From Flavivirga sp. 57AJ16 (GTDB taxonomy: Bacteria; Bacteroidota; Bacteroidia; Flavobacteriales; Flavobacteriaceae): a DNA stretch of 64,000 nucleotides. The translations under genes were made by a program, and so were the position numbers. This document shows positions 14,267 through 56,606 of the stretch, piece by piece. Below the pieces are notes generated by a model, which was not told where the DNA came from, searched no databases, and worked only from the letters and a program-made list of their open reading frames with translations. Numbering within the stretch: the first letter of the stretch is position 1; every line of letters starts with the position of its first letter. The stretch covers positions 62,001 to 126,000 of the forward strand of contig NZ_JAQZAT010000005.1 of the NCBI RefSeq assembly GCF_028736925.1. The letters run 5' to 3'.

Positions 14267-14271
14267 CAAAT

Positions 14272-14617
14272 AAGTAGATTGCCTTATCGCTCACATACTG
14301 GACTTGCTCTAGCATGTGGGAGGAAAGTCCGAACACCATAGTGCAACATAGTGGTTAATAGCCACCAGTCGTGAGGCTAGGAAAAGTGCAACAGAAAGTA
14401 TGTACAGGTCATGCTGTAGTGAAACCAGGTAAACTCTATGTGGTGCAATGCCATGTATACCAGTGTTTGAGGGCTGCACGCTCGATACTGGAGGGTAGGC
14501 AGCTAAAGTGTTTTGGTAACAATGCACGCAGATAAATGATAAGGGTTTTTTGTACTTGTTTTAGGGGATCCTGAAACAGGTTCGGGAAATACAGAATTCG
14601 GCTTATAGATTTACTTT
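14272..14617 (+). ncRNA. rnpB: RNase P RNA, bacterial class A
   Basis: The catalytic RNA of RNase P, which matures tRNA 5' ends. The universal core is visible: GAGGAAAGTCCGAAC (14320-14334, P4/J3-4) and the distal partner ACAGAATTCGGCTTATAG (14591-14608). AAGTAGATT at the start can pair with GATTTACTT at the end to form P1. The length (~346 nt) is normal. Ends are set by P1 and are accurate to a few bases. It is followed at once by a strong terminator hairpin. It is divergent from dnaX. Confidence 0.95.
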
Positions 14618-14623
14618 ACCATA

Positions 14624-51492: not shown

Positions 51493-51506
51493 CAAACATG
51501 GGCTGT

Positions 51507-52064
51507 TTATTTCGTTTCTGCTTCCGAAAGTATAAAAGGATAGGCGTCTTTCACATGTTTTAACGCGCTTTTTGATAGCTCGTCTACAGGCTTTCTTAAT
51601 ACATTTATACTATACGCCTCTCTTAATTCGTAATAAGCTTTTGAGAGTTCATCCTGTACCGCAATAAATTGTTTATAAGACGTATGTCTACCGTTTTGTA
51701 ATGATACTACTGCTCTTTTAGGATTATCGGATGCGTTTGGACTTTTTGCACCATGACAATAATTACAAGTACCATCGCCATTGTTATCCAAAAAGCTTTT
51801 GGTGATCTCTTTTAATTCGGAAATGGAAACCACGTTATTTTCTATCATAATTTCATCATTATTGTTTATTAGAATGCGAAGTATATTGCGTTCAGATATT
51901 TTACTATCACAAACCGTTCCGGGCGGACATTCTTTTGGAAGGCGCCTATCGATCCCTTCATCTGAAGATATGGTGGCGGTTACAAGAAAAAAGATAAGTA
52001 ATAAAAATGCAATGTCTGCCATAGATCCTGCATTTACTTCAGGAATTAATTTTGAATGCCTCAT
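51507..52064 (-). CDS. ExbD/TolR-family biopolymer transport protein (solo)
   Basis: A 185-aa protein with one TM helix (about 14-33); the proton-path Asp is D17 in SMADIAFLLLIFF. The periplasmic part carries GTCNYCHGA (C100, C103, H104), a CxxCH string, and CPPGTVC (C46, C52), both in the insert that flavobacterial ExbD proteins show. ExbD works with ExbB to energise TonB or TolA; no exbB or tonB is beside it. Whether haem is bound is doubtful, since a disulfide is simpler. Its 5' side is the small-ORF region. Confidence 0.85.
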   Translation of the reverse strand: MRHSKLIPEVNAGSMADIAFLLLIFFLVTATISSDEGIDRRLPKECPPGTVCDSKISERNILRILINNNDEIMIENNVVSISELKEITKSFLDNNGDGTCNYCHGAKSPNASDNPKRAVVSLQNGRHTSYKQFIAVQDELSKAYYELREAYSINVLRKPVDELSKSALKHVKDAYPFILSEAETK

Positions 52065-52174
52065 AATTATAGATTTAAATGTTAATATGTTAATGAAATC
52101 ACAAAAACAATACCATAAATCTTATTATATTACCAATCACGTATGCATACAAATATTGAATCATAAAAAGTTGT

Positions 52175-52263
52175 ACACGAATGGCAAAAATTCACACGAA
52201 TCTAATTACTTAATGGCGTAGATTGGACTCAACATATTAGTGAAAATTTGTGCCATTCGTGTC
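52175..52263. repeat. Interspersed inverted-repeat element, copy 2 (ATTCGTG family)
   Basis: ACACGAATGGCAAAAATT and its counterpart ending TGCCATTCGTGT bound ~90 bp. The interior TAGATTGGACTCAACAT closely matches TAGATTGGACCCAACAT, the complement of the interior of the element at 53837-53941, so the two are inverted copies. The rest of 52065-52414 shows nothing else. Confidence 0.7.
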
Positions 52264-52414
52264 TTTTTAAAAATGTGTATTTACAATTTTGGAATTAAAA
52301 TTTCTGGTTGAAAAGACACTTAAATCTAAAAAATAAAAAGTTATAATATATAAAGTGATTTGTCATTCAATGTAAATCCTGATACTCTAATATGTCTTAG
52401 ATCATGTCTCTCTA

Positions 52415-52549
52415 TTAATAAGCATAGCATTTTATGCGTTTCCATGCATTCTCATGTGAATTATCATGGTTTGGTATGATGCTATCTGTAATTGAGTTTT
52501 CTTGAGTGATACTATTTAAGTACCTCGATATTTTAGTAGTTGATTTCAT
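52415..52549 (-). CDS. Small ORF C, 44 aa, unknown
   Basis: ATG at 52549, stop at 52415-52417. It reads MKSTTKISRYLNSITQENSI and ends NAWKRIKCYAY: polar, with a basic start and end, one Cys, no signal peptide or TM segment. It lies 44 bp downstream of ORF B on the same strand. I do not recognise it, and without a paralogue in the window its coding status rests on position alone. Confidence 0.4.
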   Translation of the reverse strand: MKSTTKISRYLNSITQENSITDSIIPNHDNSHENAWKRIKCYAY

Positions 52550-52593
52550 TTTGATTATTTGATTGATGAAAAAATTGTTTTAAAAGACGCTAC

Positions 52594-52680
52594 TTATCTG
52601 TAACGTCTTTTACTGTTCCAATTGTAACTTTTTGTAGTGTTTAAAGTGCCACTTAGTTGATTGTTGTTTAATGTTCTCAT
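52594..52680 (-). CDS. Small ORF B, 28 aa micro-protein, paralogue of ORF A
   Basis: ATG at 52680, stop TAA at 52594-52596. The N-terminal half is MRTLNNNQLSGTL, identical to ORF A; the C-terminal half ends YNWNSKRRYR, against NQWNRKRRFR in A. 22 of 28 residues match, while seven matching residues (9-13, 16 and 22) use different codons. That pattern points to selection on the peptide. It is strongly basic at the C-terminus, with a conserved Trp, and has no signal peptide. It matches no family I know. Confidence 0.65.
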   Translation of the reverse strand: MRTLNNNQLSGTLNTTKSYNWNSKRRYR

Positions 52681-52782
52681 GGTTTTTGATTTAATGTTGA
52701 TACTGAAATAGGTATAATTCATTTCAAAAAATTCAGTATAGGTTGATTAATTGATTGATGATTTTCAATAACTTAAAATAAC

Positions 52783-52869
52783 TTATCTAAAACGTCTTTT
52801 TCTATTCCATTGGTTACTTTTAGTTCCAGTTAGTGTTCCGCTTAATTGATTGTTGTTTAATGTTCTCAT
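52783..52869 (-). CDS. Small ORF A, 28 aa micro-protein, paralogue of ORF B
   Basis: ATG at 52869, stop TAA at 52783-52785; exactly the length of ORF B, 189 bp upstream of it. It begins MRTLNNNQLSGTLTGTK and ends WNRKRRFR. The replacements against B are at residues 14, 15, 19, 20, 23 and 27 (27 being Phe for Tyr). The downstream flanks share ATCAATCAA plus TAATCAA motifs, so the duplication covered the flank as well. A role as RNA- or membrane-binding peptide would fit the basic tail, but that is only inference. Confidence 0.65.
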   Translation of the reverse strand: MRTLNNNQLSGTLTGTKSNQWNRKRRFR

Positions 52870-52929
52870 AATTGTTGTTTTTTGAATGGTTTATACTAGA
52901 TAGACGACCATAAATGAAAAACGTTACAG

Positions 52930-52948
52930 TACTATGTATAACAAAGTA
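52930..52948. promoter_or_regulatory. Imperfect palindrome in the divergent region
   Basis: TACTATG-TATAA-CAAAGTA (one mismatch between arms) lies ~60 bp upstream of ORF A and ~190 bp upstream of the exported-protein gene. It could be an operator or promoter shared by the divergent units. No exact TAnnTTTG box was found for either. Confidence 0.35.
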
Positions 52949-53134
52949 ATAAATTAACATATTTTAACGATTTTGAAGGGATTTTAGTAAGCAACAACCC
53001 TTTTTTCGGACTTTTAAAGTGTTTTAGGAATGATTATTGTGTTAAATGAATACAAAATTTAGCTAAGAGTAGATATGTTTTCAGATAAAAAAATATCTTT
53101 GAAATATGTTAGCTGCATTATTAATAAAAAACAA

Positions 53135-53809
53135 ATGAGACTTTACTTTTCATTTTTTATACTATTTGTTTTTTCGCTATCAACTTATGCTCAGATTGAT
53201 GTGAAAAAAAAATCTATTGCCATACCCGCTGTTAAAAGTAAAGATTCAGTTGATGCTAATCCGTTTTTGCCGTCTAAGCCTGACAACAATACGCCAATCG
53301 ATAATATAAATACCCCTAGGGTATCTAATAATCTCAATATACCCCAAAAAGAGTTTTCTATGTTTGGGGGTGAGAAATTTGGTAATCCAGGAGAGCTTTA
53401 TGAGGACCGACTTAATAAAAGTTTGGATCACTTAAAGTTAAGTCAGGAAGAGTTGGAATTGAAAAATGGCAGTACAACAGATCAATATTTTGGTGACTTT
53501 AAGAGTAAGGCCAAGTTTGTGAATGTGGTATATAGGGACCATGGTTATGTTGATGGCGATATCATTCAAGTTTTGGTAAATGATGACATTATTCATGCCA
53601 GGGTATATTTAACAGGTGGATTTAAAGGTTTTAAACTCGATTTGCAACCAGGGTTTAATAAAATAGATTTCTTAGCTTTAAACCAAGGGGAATCAGGGCC
53701 CAATACCGCCGAATTTAAAGTGGTCGACGACCAGGGAAATTTGGTGTCTTCAAATCGTTGGAATCTGGCTACGGGCGTGAAAGCAACCGTTATCATTGTA
53801 AAGGAATAG
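53135..53809 (+). CDS. Exported protein of unknown function
   Basis: A 224-aa product from the ATG at 53135, which places a clean signal peptide (MRLYFSFFILFVFSLSTYAQ) at the N-terminus; an upstream ATG at 53075 would bury it. After a Lys/Pro/Asn-rich linker (~25-90), the C-terminal ~100 residues form a beta-sandwich-like domain: VVYRDHGYVDGDIIQVLVND, VYLTGGFKGFKLDLQPGFN and FLALNQGESGPNTAEF. I recall similar exported proteins in Flavobacteriaceae, but no function. It is divergent from the small ORFs. Confidence 0.75.
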   Translation: MRLYFSFFILFVFSLSTYAQIDVKKKSIAIPAVKSKDSVDANPFLPSKPDNNTPIDNINTPRVSNNLNIPQKEFSMFGGEKFGNPGELYEDRLNKSLDHLKLSQEELELKNGSTTDQYFGDFKSKAKFVNVVYRDHGYVDGDIIQVLVNDDIIHARVYLTGGFKGFKLDLQPGFNKIDFLALNQGESGPNTAEFKVVDDQGNLVSSNRWNLATGVKATVIIVKE

Positions 53810-55010: not shown

Positions 55011-55175
55011 GTTTAGAGTAACTAATAATTAAGGCTGTAAATGTATAAATTATATTGCTAATATTCGATAAATATGCGAATCCGTATGGCTAAGAACCAA
55101 GATTTGCCCCTAATTAACCGACAAGCATGTGCCCACATCTTTTTAAGCTATTTTCCCTGTTGGTTTAGTCAATTT

Positions 55176-56606
55176 GTCATTCCTGCGAAGGCAGGAATCC
55201 ACTATTAAGTTAATAAGTCCAATTTTCATTCTTTAACATCAAGATAAAACGGGGCATCGTTTTTTATATAAAATCATTTAGTAAGCCAGTGGATTCCTGC
55301 TTATGCAGGAATGACAAACTGACTCCATTACACGTGCTAGTTAAAAAAATTAATTAGGATCTTTTGTGGTTGTGGTGTTTTACACTACTATTGAAGTGAT
55401 TGCTCAAATAACTTGTTTATGAGTTATTAGGTAGATTTCATAAATATGGTTCTTTTACATTAATCTAAATAGTTTATTATGATGTTAATAGCAAAAACGA
55501 ACCTGTCTGTCATTCCTGCGAAGGCAGGAATCCATTATTAAGTTAATAAGTTTAATTTTCATTCTTTAACATCAAGATAAAACGGGGGCATCGTTTTTAT
55601 ATCAAATCATTTGGTAAGCCAGTGGATTCCTGCCTTCGCAGGAATGACAAACGGACTCCATTACACGAGCTAGTTAAAAAATTTAATTAGGATCTTTTGT
55701 GGTTGTGGTGTTTTATACTACTATTGAAGTGATTGCTCAAATCATAAATATGGTTCCTTTACATTGATCTAAATAGTTTATTACGATGTTAATGGCAAAA
55801 ACGAACCTGTCTGTCATTCCTGAGAAGGCAGGAATCCATTATTAAGTTAACAAGTCCAATTTTCATTCTTTAACATCAAGAAAAAACGGGGCATCGTTTT
55901 TATATAAAATCATTTAGTAAGCCAGTGGATTCCTGCTTATGCAGGAATGACAAACTAACTCCATTACACGTGCTAGTTAAAAAATTTAATTAGGATCTTT
56001 TGTGGTTGTGGTGTTTTATACTACTATTGAAGTGATTGCTCAAATCATAAATATGGTTCCTTTACATTGATCTAAATAGTTTATTACGATGTTAATGGCA
56101 AAAACGAACCTGTCTGTCATTCCTGCGAAGGCAGGAATCCATTATTAAGTTAATAAGTATTTTCATTCTTTAACATCAAGATAAAACGGGGCATCGTTTT
56201 TTATATAAAATCATTTAGTTAGCCAGTGGATTCCTGCTTATGCAGGAATGACAAACTAACTCCATTACACGTGCTAGTTAAAAAATTTAATTAGGATCTT
56301 TTGTGGTTGTGGTGTTTTACACTACTATTGAAGTGATTGCTCAAATAACTTGTTTATGAGTTATTAGGTAGATTTCATAAATATGGTTCTTTTACATTAA
56401 TCTAAATAGTTTATTATGATGTTAATAGCAAAAACGAACCTGTCTGTCATTCCTGCGAAGGCAGGAATCCATTATTAAGTTAATAAGTCCAATTTTCATT
56501 CTTTAACATAAAGAAAAAACGGGGCATCGTTTTTTATATAAAATCATTTAGTAAGCCAGTGGATTCCTGCTTATGCAGGAATGACAAACTAACTCCATTA
56601 CACGTG
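55176..56606. repeat. Tandem array of five hairpin repeats (~303-333 bp period)
   Basis: GTCATTCCTGCGAAGGCAGG begins units at 55176, 55509, 55813, 56116 and 56446. Within each unit a complementary arm (TGGATTCCTGCTTATGCAGG or the CCTTCGC form) follows ~120 bp later, so each unit can fold into a long hairpin whose arms are themselves palindromes. The rest of each unit (AACGGGGCATCGTTTT, GGATCTTTTGTGGTTGTGG and more) is also repeated. The ~303-bp units lack a 28-bp segment present in the 330-bp ones. It holds no ORF. Confidence 0.88.

Follow-up and report, generated by a model that had tools for sequence, protein, structure and literature searches.

The 64,000-nucleotide window analysed here (Flavivirga sp. 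57AJ16, contig NZ_JAQZAT010000005.1, positions 62,001 to 126,000) carries on its minus strand two tandem micro-genes, open reading frame (ORF) A (52783..52869; MRTLNNNQLSGTLTGTKSNQWNRKRRFR) and ORF B (52594..52680; MRTLNNNQLSGTLNTTKSYNWNSKRRYR), the first and second genes of an array encoding proteins of 28 amino acids (aa). Their coordinates and their length of 28 codons each, given in an initial annotation of the sequence, were reproduced, as was their identity at 22/28 residues; of the 13 codons that differ between them, 7 changes are silent (9-13, 16, 22) and 6 replace a residue (14, 15, 19, 20, 23, 27). ORF B can also be read with a 14-codon N-terminal extension; the family start is MRTL. 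Searching the organism's own genome with ORF A returned ORF A itself and ORF B (E 2e-8), and no other match at E<=10. The annotation placed the pair in a stretch of about 1 kb otherwise without genes; the size of the gap stands, but its emptiness does not, because it holds a third conserved micro-gene of 44 aa (MKSTTKISRYLNSITQENSITDSIIPNHDNSHENAWKRIKCYAY; 52415..52549, minus strand), recognized by profile matches and by its substitution pattern. Ahead of ORF A, at 52891..52939 on the minus strand, lies a conserved promoter element, ATACATAGTACTGTAACG-N14-TCGTCTATCTAGTATAA, predicted to be of the alternative-sigma, extracytoplasmic function (ECF) type, whose core is found at 91/96 first copies of such arrays. 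The third micro-gene, the long conserved promoter and the other micro-proteins found behind the same promoter are absent from the initial annotation, which is thus incomplete: the pair exemplifies a family-wide system of micro-gene arrays linked to a promoter, and its operon encodes one more micro-protein. As far as comparison of sequences can, the evidence below establishes that A and B encode proteins, evolve under purifying selection, form a tandem duplicate pair and are linked to a single conserved promoter.

The coding selection proposed for A and B is borne out strongly by a frame-specific contrast in the ratio of replacement to silent differences (pN/pS). Across 60 of 153 distinct copies, the true frame gave a pN/pS of 0.345 (0.164 in the last eight codons), whereas the two shifted forward frames gave 1.53 and 0.99, and the three reverse-strand frames 1.96, 0.58 and 1.02. 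Replacement differences were similarly rare at both ends (pN 0.117 in codons 1-13, 0.094 in codons 21-28), and silent variation was lower in codons 1-13 (pS 0.33 vs 0.57-0.66 elsewhere). The window and the fetched loci together yielded 235 copies, or 156 distinct ones once identical flanks were collapsed. Retention of the frame in homologues, chosen beforehand as the point on which the coding interpretation could fail, was found in 154 of the 156, which have ATG at the expected site; the other two are an out-of-register piece and a fragment. The length is 28 aa in 145 of the 154, 29 aa in 7 and 31 aa in 2, and residues M1, T3, L4, N7, W21, N22, R25 and R26 are invariant; in one array (L075) a copy is shortened to 20 aa. 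Adenine occupies position -3 of the start context in 95% of the 154 copies and position -6 in 79%, relative to a background of 0.40. Adenines at -3 and -6 are positive initiation determinants in Flavobacterium johnsoniae, whose phylum is described as lacking Shine-Dalgarno sites (PMC6847099). Runs of the tetranucleotide AATC precede several micro-genes (spacers in L015, L094, L106 and others) and may reflect slippage of a simple repeat or help initiation.

On this evidence, ORFs A and B are genes of an unrecognised family of 28-aa proteins. All 12 Flavivirga genomes searched, the window's own included, have full-length copies, with 1-4 in each. A 20-row profile matched 174 of 397 Flavobacteriaceae genomes at E<=0.1, many of them weakly, and a hand count at E<=1e-6 places the family in at least 109 of the 397; these counts are lower bounds, because at most 20 candidates were scored per genome. 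Named carriers among the best 79 of 228 confirmed stretches include Flavivirga, Algibacter, Flaviramulus, Lacinutrix, Winogradskyella, Mangrovimonas, Olleya, Hyunsoonleella, Seonamhaeicola and Psychroserpens. An order-level search matched 6/296 genomes at E<=1e-4, all 6 of them Flavobacteriaceae, and gave no match in g127, the commonest genus among the entries listed.

The feature that ties these genes together is the promoter. Its long form upstream of first copies reads ATRCATAGTACTGTAACA-N14-TCGTCTATCTAGTATAA, and the pattern [A/G]TAAC-N16-CGTC[T/A] occurs upstream of 91/96 first copies and 1/58 later copies, with a spacing of exactly 16 at 90/91 when spacers of 8-24 were allowed; a stricter pattern gave 74/96 and 0/58. 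The consensus of 90 distinct sites is AT(A/G)CATAGTACTGTAACA, 14 A+T-rich bases and TCGTCTATCTAGTATAA. GTAAC and CGTC are set by the search pattern and the remaining columns are free, and columns outside the pattern are conserved on both of its sides; GTAAC lies 55-87 nt upstream of the start codon at 88/90 sites. Within the window, GTAACN{13,18}CGTCTA has a single match vs 0.05 expected from shuffles. The perfect form TGTAACAN14-15TCGTCTAT occurs once per Flavivirga genome and stands at the array in 11/12, with one match for its reversed control over all 12 genomes; the perfect site in the window's own genome (L139, 1501-1527, TGTAACA-N15-CGTCTAT) lies upstream not of the array but of a secreted ankyrin-repeat-like gene, as judged by eye. 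AGTACTGTAACAN13-15CGTCT is found at 109 places in 91/249 Flavobacteriaceae genomes (reversed control 0) and, across the phylum, in 4/218 genomes, all 4 among 22 Flavobacteriaceae, with none in the 196 genomes from outside that family.

The CGT box suggests an ECF-type sigma factor, and we take the two halves of the element to be the -35 and -10 boxes of such a promoter. By eye, no ECF gene stands beside the array among the 22 largest neighbour clusters at 83 loci. The closest parallel is motif SM6 of F. psychrophilum, a predicted ECF-sigma regulon whose promoters have CGT in their -10 box and are switched on when nutrients are low (PMC9723704). The array promoter is alike in its expected ECF-type control and, as GTAAC-N16-CGTC at 91/96 first copies, in combining a CGT-containing -10 with a conserved -35 at fixed spacing. 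It differs in being far longer, array-linked and fixed in its -35 half, ATRCATAGTACTGTAAC; the SM6 genes noted from that study (type IX secretion system components, Band-7 proteins, sigma and anti-sigma factors, a small RNA and others) are not micro-protein arrays.

Following the promoter rather than the protein led to further micro-genes. Of 40 stretches surrounding copies of the promoter, 36 come from genomes outside the 109 with the 28-aa family; 27 of the 40 encode 36-39-aa proteins such as MKASITKTATESKTGQYFSSFRNSKRAQWAQYRNYNR (71 copies, with two or more in 24/27 stretches), and in several of these arrays the leading protein has 38-43 aa and contains GFGW; other stretches encode 41-44-aa or variant 28-aa proteins. 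The 37-codon type shows its own frame-specific selection (for 45 of 55 distinct copies, pN/pS 0.39 in frame and 1.48 and 0.95 in the two shifted forward frames), and its profile matches 55/397 Flavobacteriaceae genomes at E<=1e-5. It co-occurs with the 28-aa family in 2 genomes vs 15 expected (P 1.5e-6, uncorrected for relatedness). Among 249 genomes, 72 have the 28-aa family (exact promoter in 56), 30 the 37-aa family (exact promoter in 20) and 148 neither at the cut-offs used (exact promoter in 15). The two families are thus near-exclusive, and in related genomes the 28-aa family is largely replaced by others behind the same promoter, mostly basic proteins of 36-37 aa. An hhalign comparison of the 28-aa and 37-aa families (E 0.0016, probability 16) was not taken as showing homology.

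A common tail motif runs through these proteins. We examined 59 distinct sites of the 109, counting related sites separately, for an ORF of 20-60 aa with A at -3 within 420 nt. Such an ORF exists at 54/59; the first one contains W-x3-[RK]-x-[YFH] at 49/54 and any qualifying one at 52/54, vs a mean of 1.35 and a maximum of 5 in shuffled controls, and the motif persists at 26/31 sites when the 28-aa type is left out. The motif had been noticed in the same material beforehand, and therefore the test excludes composition as its source and does not count as a prediction. Of the five sites lacking a qualifying ORF, two precede a 188-aa secreted-looking protein and one is the receptor-like gene of L295; L298 reads as a chance promoter match, and at L292 37-aa ORFs are nonetheless visible. 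L271 has two tandem genes for the 188-aa protein, each with its own promoter copy (981 and 2018, minus strand). In two genera (L136, site 1501-1527 and gene from 1689; L295, site at 968), GTAAC-N16-CGTCTA also precedes, by roughly 200-300 nt, outer-membrane receptor-like genes that resemble each other and were named by eye. These genes are a possible further member of the regulon, although in the window's own genome the short core occurs no more often than its control.

Within the arrays, the last 28-aa gene is followed by another micro-gene. A pattern search over 95 arrays assigned this second gene to a 43-46-aa family in 65, with some extra by eye, the window's own included, and to an acidic 22-23-aa type in 14; 16 arrays were left over, in three of which (L103, L106, L073) a 113-aa secreted-looking protein comes directly after the array in place of the 44-aa one. 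In most of 20 stretches from more distant genera, the same place is taken by one more short ORF, either 22-23 or 38-45 aa long. The 44-aa profile matches 57/397 Flavobacteriaceae genomes at E<=1e-3, 56 of which fall within the 109 carrying the 28-aa family; the remaining match (G400) is interrupted by three stops. Frame-specific selection appears weaker in this family than in the 28-aa and 37-aa ones (over 57 distinct copies, pN/pS is 0.56 in the true frame but 1.00 and 0.87 in the shifted forward ones). Homology between the 28-aa and 44-aa families was not taken as shown either (probability 3 in an hhalign-type comparison), and an AlphaFold model of the 44-aa protein, two helices with a mean predicted local distance difference test (pLDDT) of 69 and a predicted template-modelling score of 0.29, was not used. 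The interval separating the 44-aa gene from the ExbD-like gene beyond it contains an inverted repeat (52175-52262; 27-nt arms, 85% complementary, 34 nt apart) that looks like a small repeat element.

A 13-bp hairpin spans the stop codon of ORF B (52581..52612, minus strand; free energy -16.1 kcal/mol), its arms formed by the KRRYR codons and the bases after the stop, in a terminator- or attenuator-like arrangement. Pairing of 11 or more of the 12 arm bases is seen in 28/91 last copies vs 1/51 earlier copies (0.06 and 0.04, respectively, with downstream bases shuffled), and a strong hairpin is missing from the other 63 last copies. Covariation between the arms is slight: when arms were exchanged between loci at which they differ (246 swaps), pairing was better with the native arm in 50 swaps, poorer in 2 and equal in the rest. 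We considered whether the protein tail is conserved merely as a hairpin arm and rejected this, since codons 24-28 are constrained similarly in 70 last copies (pN 0.052) and in 53 earlier, mostly hairpin-free copies (0.064). The tail is therefore accounted for by protein selection, with the hairpin added on top.

The surroundings of the array are partly conserved. A divergent gene for a secreted-looking 224-aa protein (53135..53809, plus strand) has a homologue upstream on the opposite strand at 77/83 loci, its near end less than 0.9 kb from the first copy at 64 loci and 1.8-3.1 kb at 13. The AlphaFold model of this protein is weak (mean pLDDT 57.6, with a beta-domain of about 75 over residues 117-223), and Foldseek found no match to it at E<=0.001. 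Downstream, an ExbD/TolR-like gene (51507..52064, minus strand; Pfam ExbD, E 1.4e-18) is probably a separate transcription unit; such a gene lies near the array at 54/83 loci, downstream in 48/57 matches. Other neighbour genes were named by eye. Copies also occur away from this conserved setting. In one genome, three standalone units (L225, L226, L228) of 1-2 copies each have no co-directional ORF >=110 aa within about 1.6 kb and no ORF >=20 aa starting within 200 nt. At L094, L188 and L183, 28-aa genes are followed by a 38-63-aa ORF (39 aa in the family register at L094) and then by MacA/MacB-like exporter genes, with a sigma-54-like TGGCAC...TTG site upstream. L236 has MacA/MacB-like exporter genes downstream and the array promoter upstream, the copies at L229 and L233 lie upstream of ATP-binding cassette (ABC) transporter genes, and those at L029 and L235 lie within a TetR/NTF2-like/hydrolase operon. 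Elsewhere in the window, near-identical short ORFs at 55143-56499 (MKIGLINLIMDSCLRRNDRQ... and similar) mark a dispersed DNA repeat in a region free of long ORFs, and 14271-14621 encodes a bacterial class A ribonuclease P RNA (195 bits).

That the family is undescribed, as the initial annotation held, agrees with the searches made. Neither the 28-aa nor the 44-aa window protein matched a family in Pfam, NCBIfam, PHROGs or PADLOC above the cut-off; the 37-aa family gave no match with 26 members against Pfam and NCBIfam and one against PHROGs and PADLOC; and no PDB sequence matched any of the three profiles. Stray database hits across these searches ranged from E 0.07 to 5.5. Rfam at gathering thresholds, run over the whole window, returned nothing at the array site. 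None of the paper searches made, over a literature without supplementary files and most subscription journals, names the families. The micro-genes may exist in RefSeq as hypothetical proteins. Mean net charge is +5.9 for the 28-aa, +6.1 for the 37-aa and +5.6 for the 44-aa proteins, and no hydrophobic stretch is visible by eye in the 28-aa protein, which makes the membrane binding once suggested for its basic tail unlikely and leaves it without the hydrophobic membrane segment of a type I toxin.

The gene system is well supported, and we infer its target. The best explanation as a whole, which we hold tentatively and at somewhat below an even chance, is a stress-induced operon of abundant, trans-acting, cytosolic basic microproteins that probably bind RNA or the ribosome. 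ORFs A and B would head a small operon in which the 28-aa array and then the 44-aa gene are carried on one transcript, made from a dedicated alternative-sigma promoter that an ECF-type sigma factor may read in stress or starvation. Translation would begin at strong A-3/A-6 start contexts, and tandem copies with good initiation sites would yield a high peptide dose. The peptides would act in trans in the cytosol, the basic tail and invariant Trp docking on RNA, most likely on the ribosome or another abundant RNA-protein machine, and in some arrays the hairpin over the last stop codon may tune read-through into the downstream micro-gene. By extension, and a little more doubtfully, the regulon may be a dedicated one whose main output is 28-45-aa basic microproteins made in bulk from tandem arrays. 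The interchangeable families filling the promoter slot, between which homology was not demonstrable, would share only W-x3-[RK]-x-[YF] near the C-terminus, with rapidly diverging peptides thereby binding a single conserved target in the cell, probably an RNA-protein machine such as the ribosome.

Several observations weigh against this explanation. RNA or ribosome binding is suggested by composition, with no PDB sequence match to strengthen it. Some copies stand behind other promoters and ahead of or inside other operons, and therefore one trigger is insufficient. The window's own promoter departs from the strict pattern by one base (G for A), the promoter is missing at 5/96 first copies (L094, the second cluster of L058, and L027-L029), and among 19 stretches with copies from distant genera the pattern occurs in 14, with a near match in two more. 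The short core GTAACN{15,16}CGTCTA has 4 sites in the window's own genome vs 4 in its reversed control, and specificity is therefore limited to the long element. Two copies of that element stand ahead of genes for a 188-aa secreted-looking protein, and another stands ahead of a receptor-like gene. The acidic second gene (14/95 arrays) has no basic Trp tail, and one reverse-strand frame of the 28-aa genes also has a low pN/pS, 0.58.

TnaC and SpeFL offer precedents for cis-acting leader peptides, in which ribosome pausing at or near the stop would control the hairpin and hence transcription of the next gene. Like them, the array peptides are short, conserve Trp and Arg near the C-terminus (both invariant here) and in some copies have a stem-loop at the stop codon (the 28/91 last copies noted above); single or few copies also lie upstream of exporter or transporter genes (L094, L188, L183, L236, L229, L233). 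Nevertheless, the peptides are conserved over their whole length, N-terminus included, they occur in tandem and as standalone units, and 63/91 last copies lack a strong hairpin. A downstream gene to be regulated is absent from L225, L226 and L228, and present at other loci. We disfavor the leader-peptide reading as unlikely because of these standalone units and because constraint, at the C-terminus as well, is similar in all copies.

It is likewise improbable that the peptides are exported as signals, bacteriocins or precursors of ribosomally synthesized and post-translationally modified peptides (RiPPs). Their fixed length, their tandem variants, the exporter and transporter genes downstream at the same six loci and a K-x3-W spacing like that of some radical S-adenosylmethionine RiPPs would fit such a role. 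However, no double-glycine leader occurs in 20 alignment rows, no signal peptide is apparent by eye, and K17 is replaced by Arg in 5/154 copies. The 22 largest neighbour clusters at 83 loci contain no maturase by eye and a single ABC-type gene, found at 12 loci roughly 5.6 kb upstream. With no leader motif and no exporter that recurs close by, secretion is disfavored, and the exporter-linked copies leave it some room.

A defense or toxin-antitoxin module, pairing a basic 28-aa peptide with a second, sometimes acidic, micro-protein, is less probable again. The two-gene layout with its fast-changing second gene and the promoter-linked replacement by other families are what such a module might show, but there was no PADLOC match, the 44-aa protein drew only one stray PHROG hit (E 0.08), tblastn with ORF B over 72,556 plasmid records found no match, none of the 46 stretches of viral contigs that fitted a pattern was confirmed, and the flanking secreted-protein gene is retained at 77/83 loci. 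Finally, a conserved RNA or DNA element with incidental ORFs, for which the reduced silent variation in codons 1-13 and the hairpin in some last copies might speak, is in the main refuted by frame-specific selection in the 28-aa, 37-aa and, more weakly, 44-aa families, by the 28-codon length kept in 145/154 copies and by the lack of any Rfam match at E<=1 over 51500-53300.

Trans-acting basic microproteins that probably bind RNA or the ribosome have parallels of their own. The arginine-rich RNA-binding peptides of the lambda N type are likewise short and basic with Trp beside Arg or Lys, and the 37-aa tail SKRAQWAQYRN is reminiscent of lambda N; the peptides here differ in forming tandem arrays in bacterial genomes, with no phage relative found in viral contigs or PHROGs. 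Short basic ribosomal or ribosome-associated peptides of the bTHX type are alike in size, charge and single Trp, whereas the arrays are multicopy, stand behind an alternative promoter, were found in one bacterial family only and have no PDB sequence match. What sets the present system apart is a promoter-defined slot that interchangeable micro-protein arrays appear to fill; its target may prove to be one already described.

The arrays look like a miniature-protein system that has been overlooked in the Flavobacteriaceae. The promoter is a sequence-independent handle on micro-genes, having led from one 28-aa family to several that are absent from the profile libraries used, and the arrays supply a large natural set of 28-37-residue proteins usable for sequence-function work. 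With the promoter, a concrete and testable regulon joins the sigma-factor network of an important group of marine bacteria, a network so far poorly charted. If one target is indeed bound by the shared W-x3-R-x-Y core, that core would mark a site on an important machine that is regulated by small peptides in Flavobacteriaceae.
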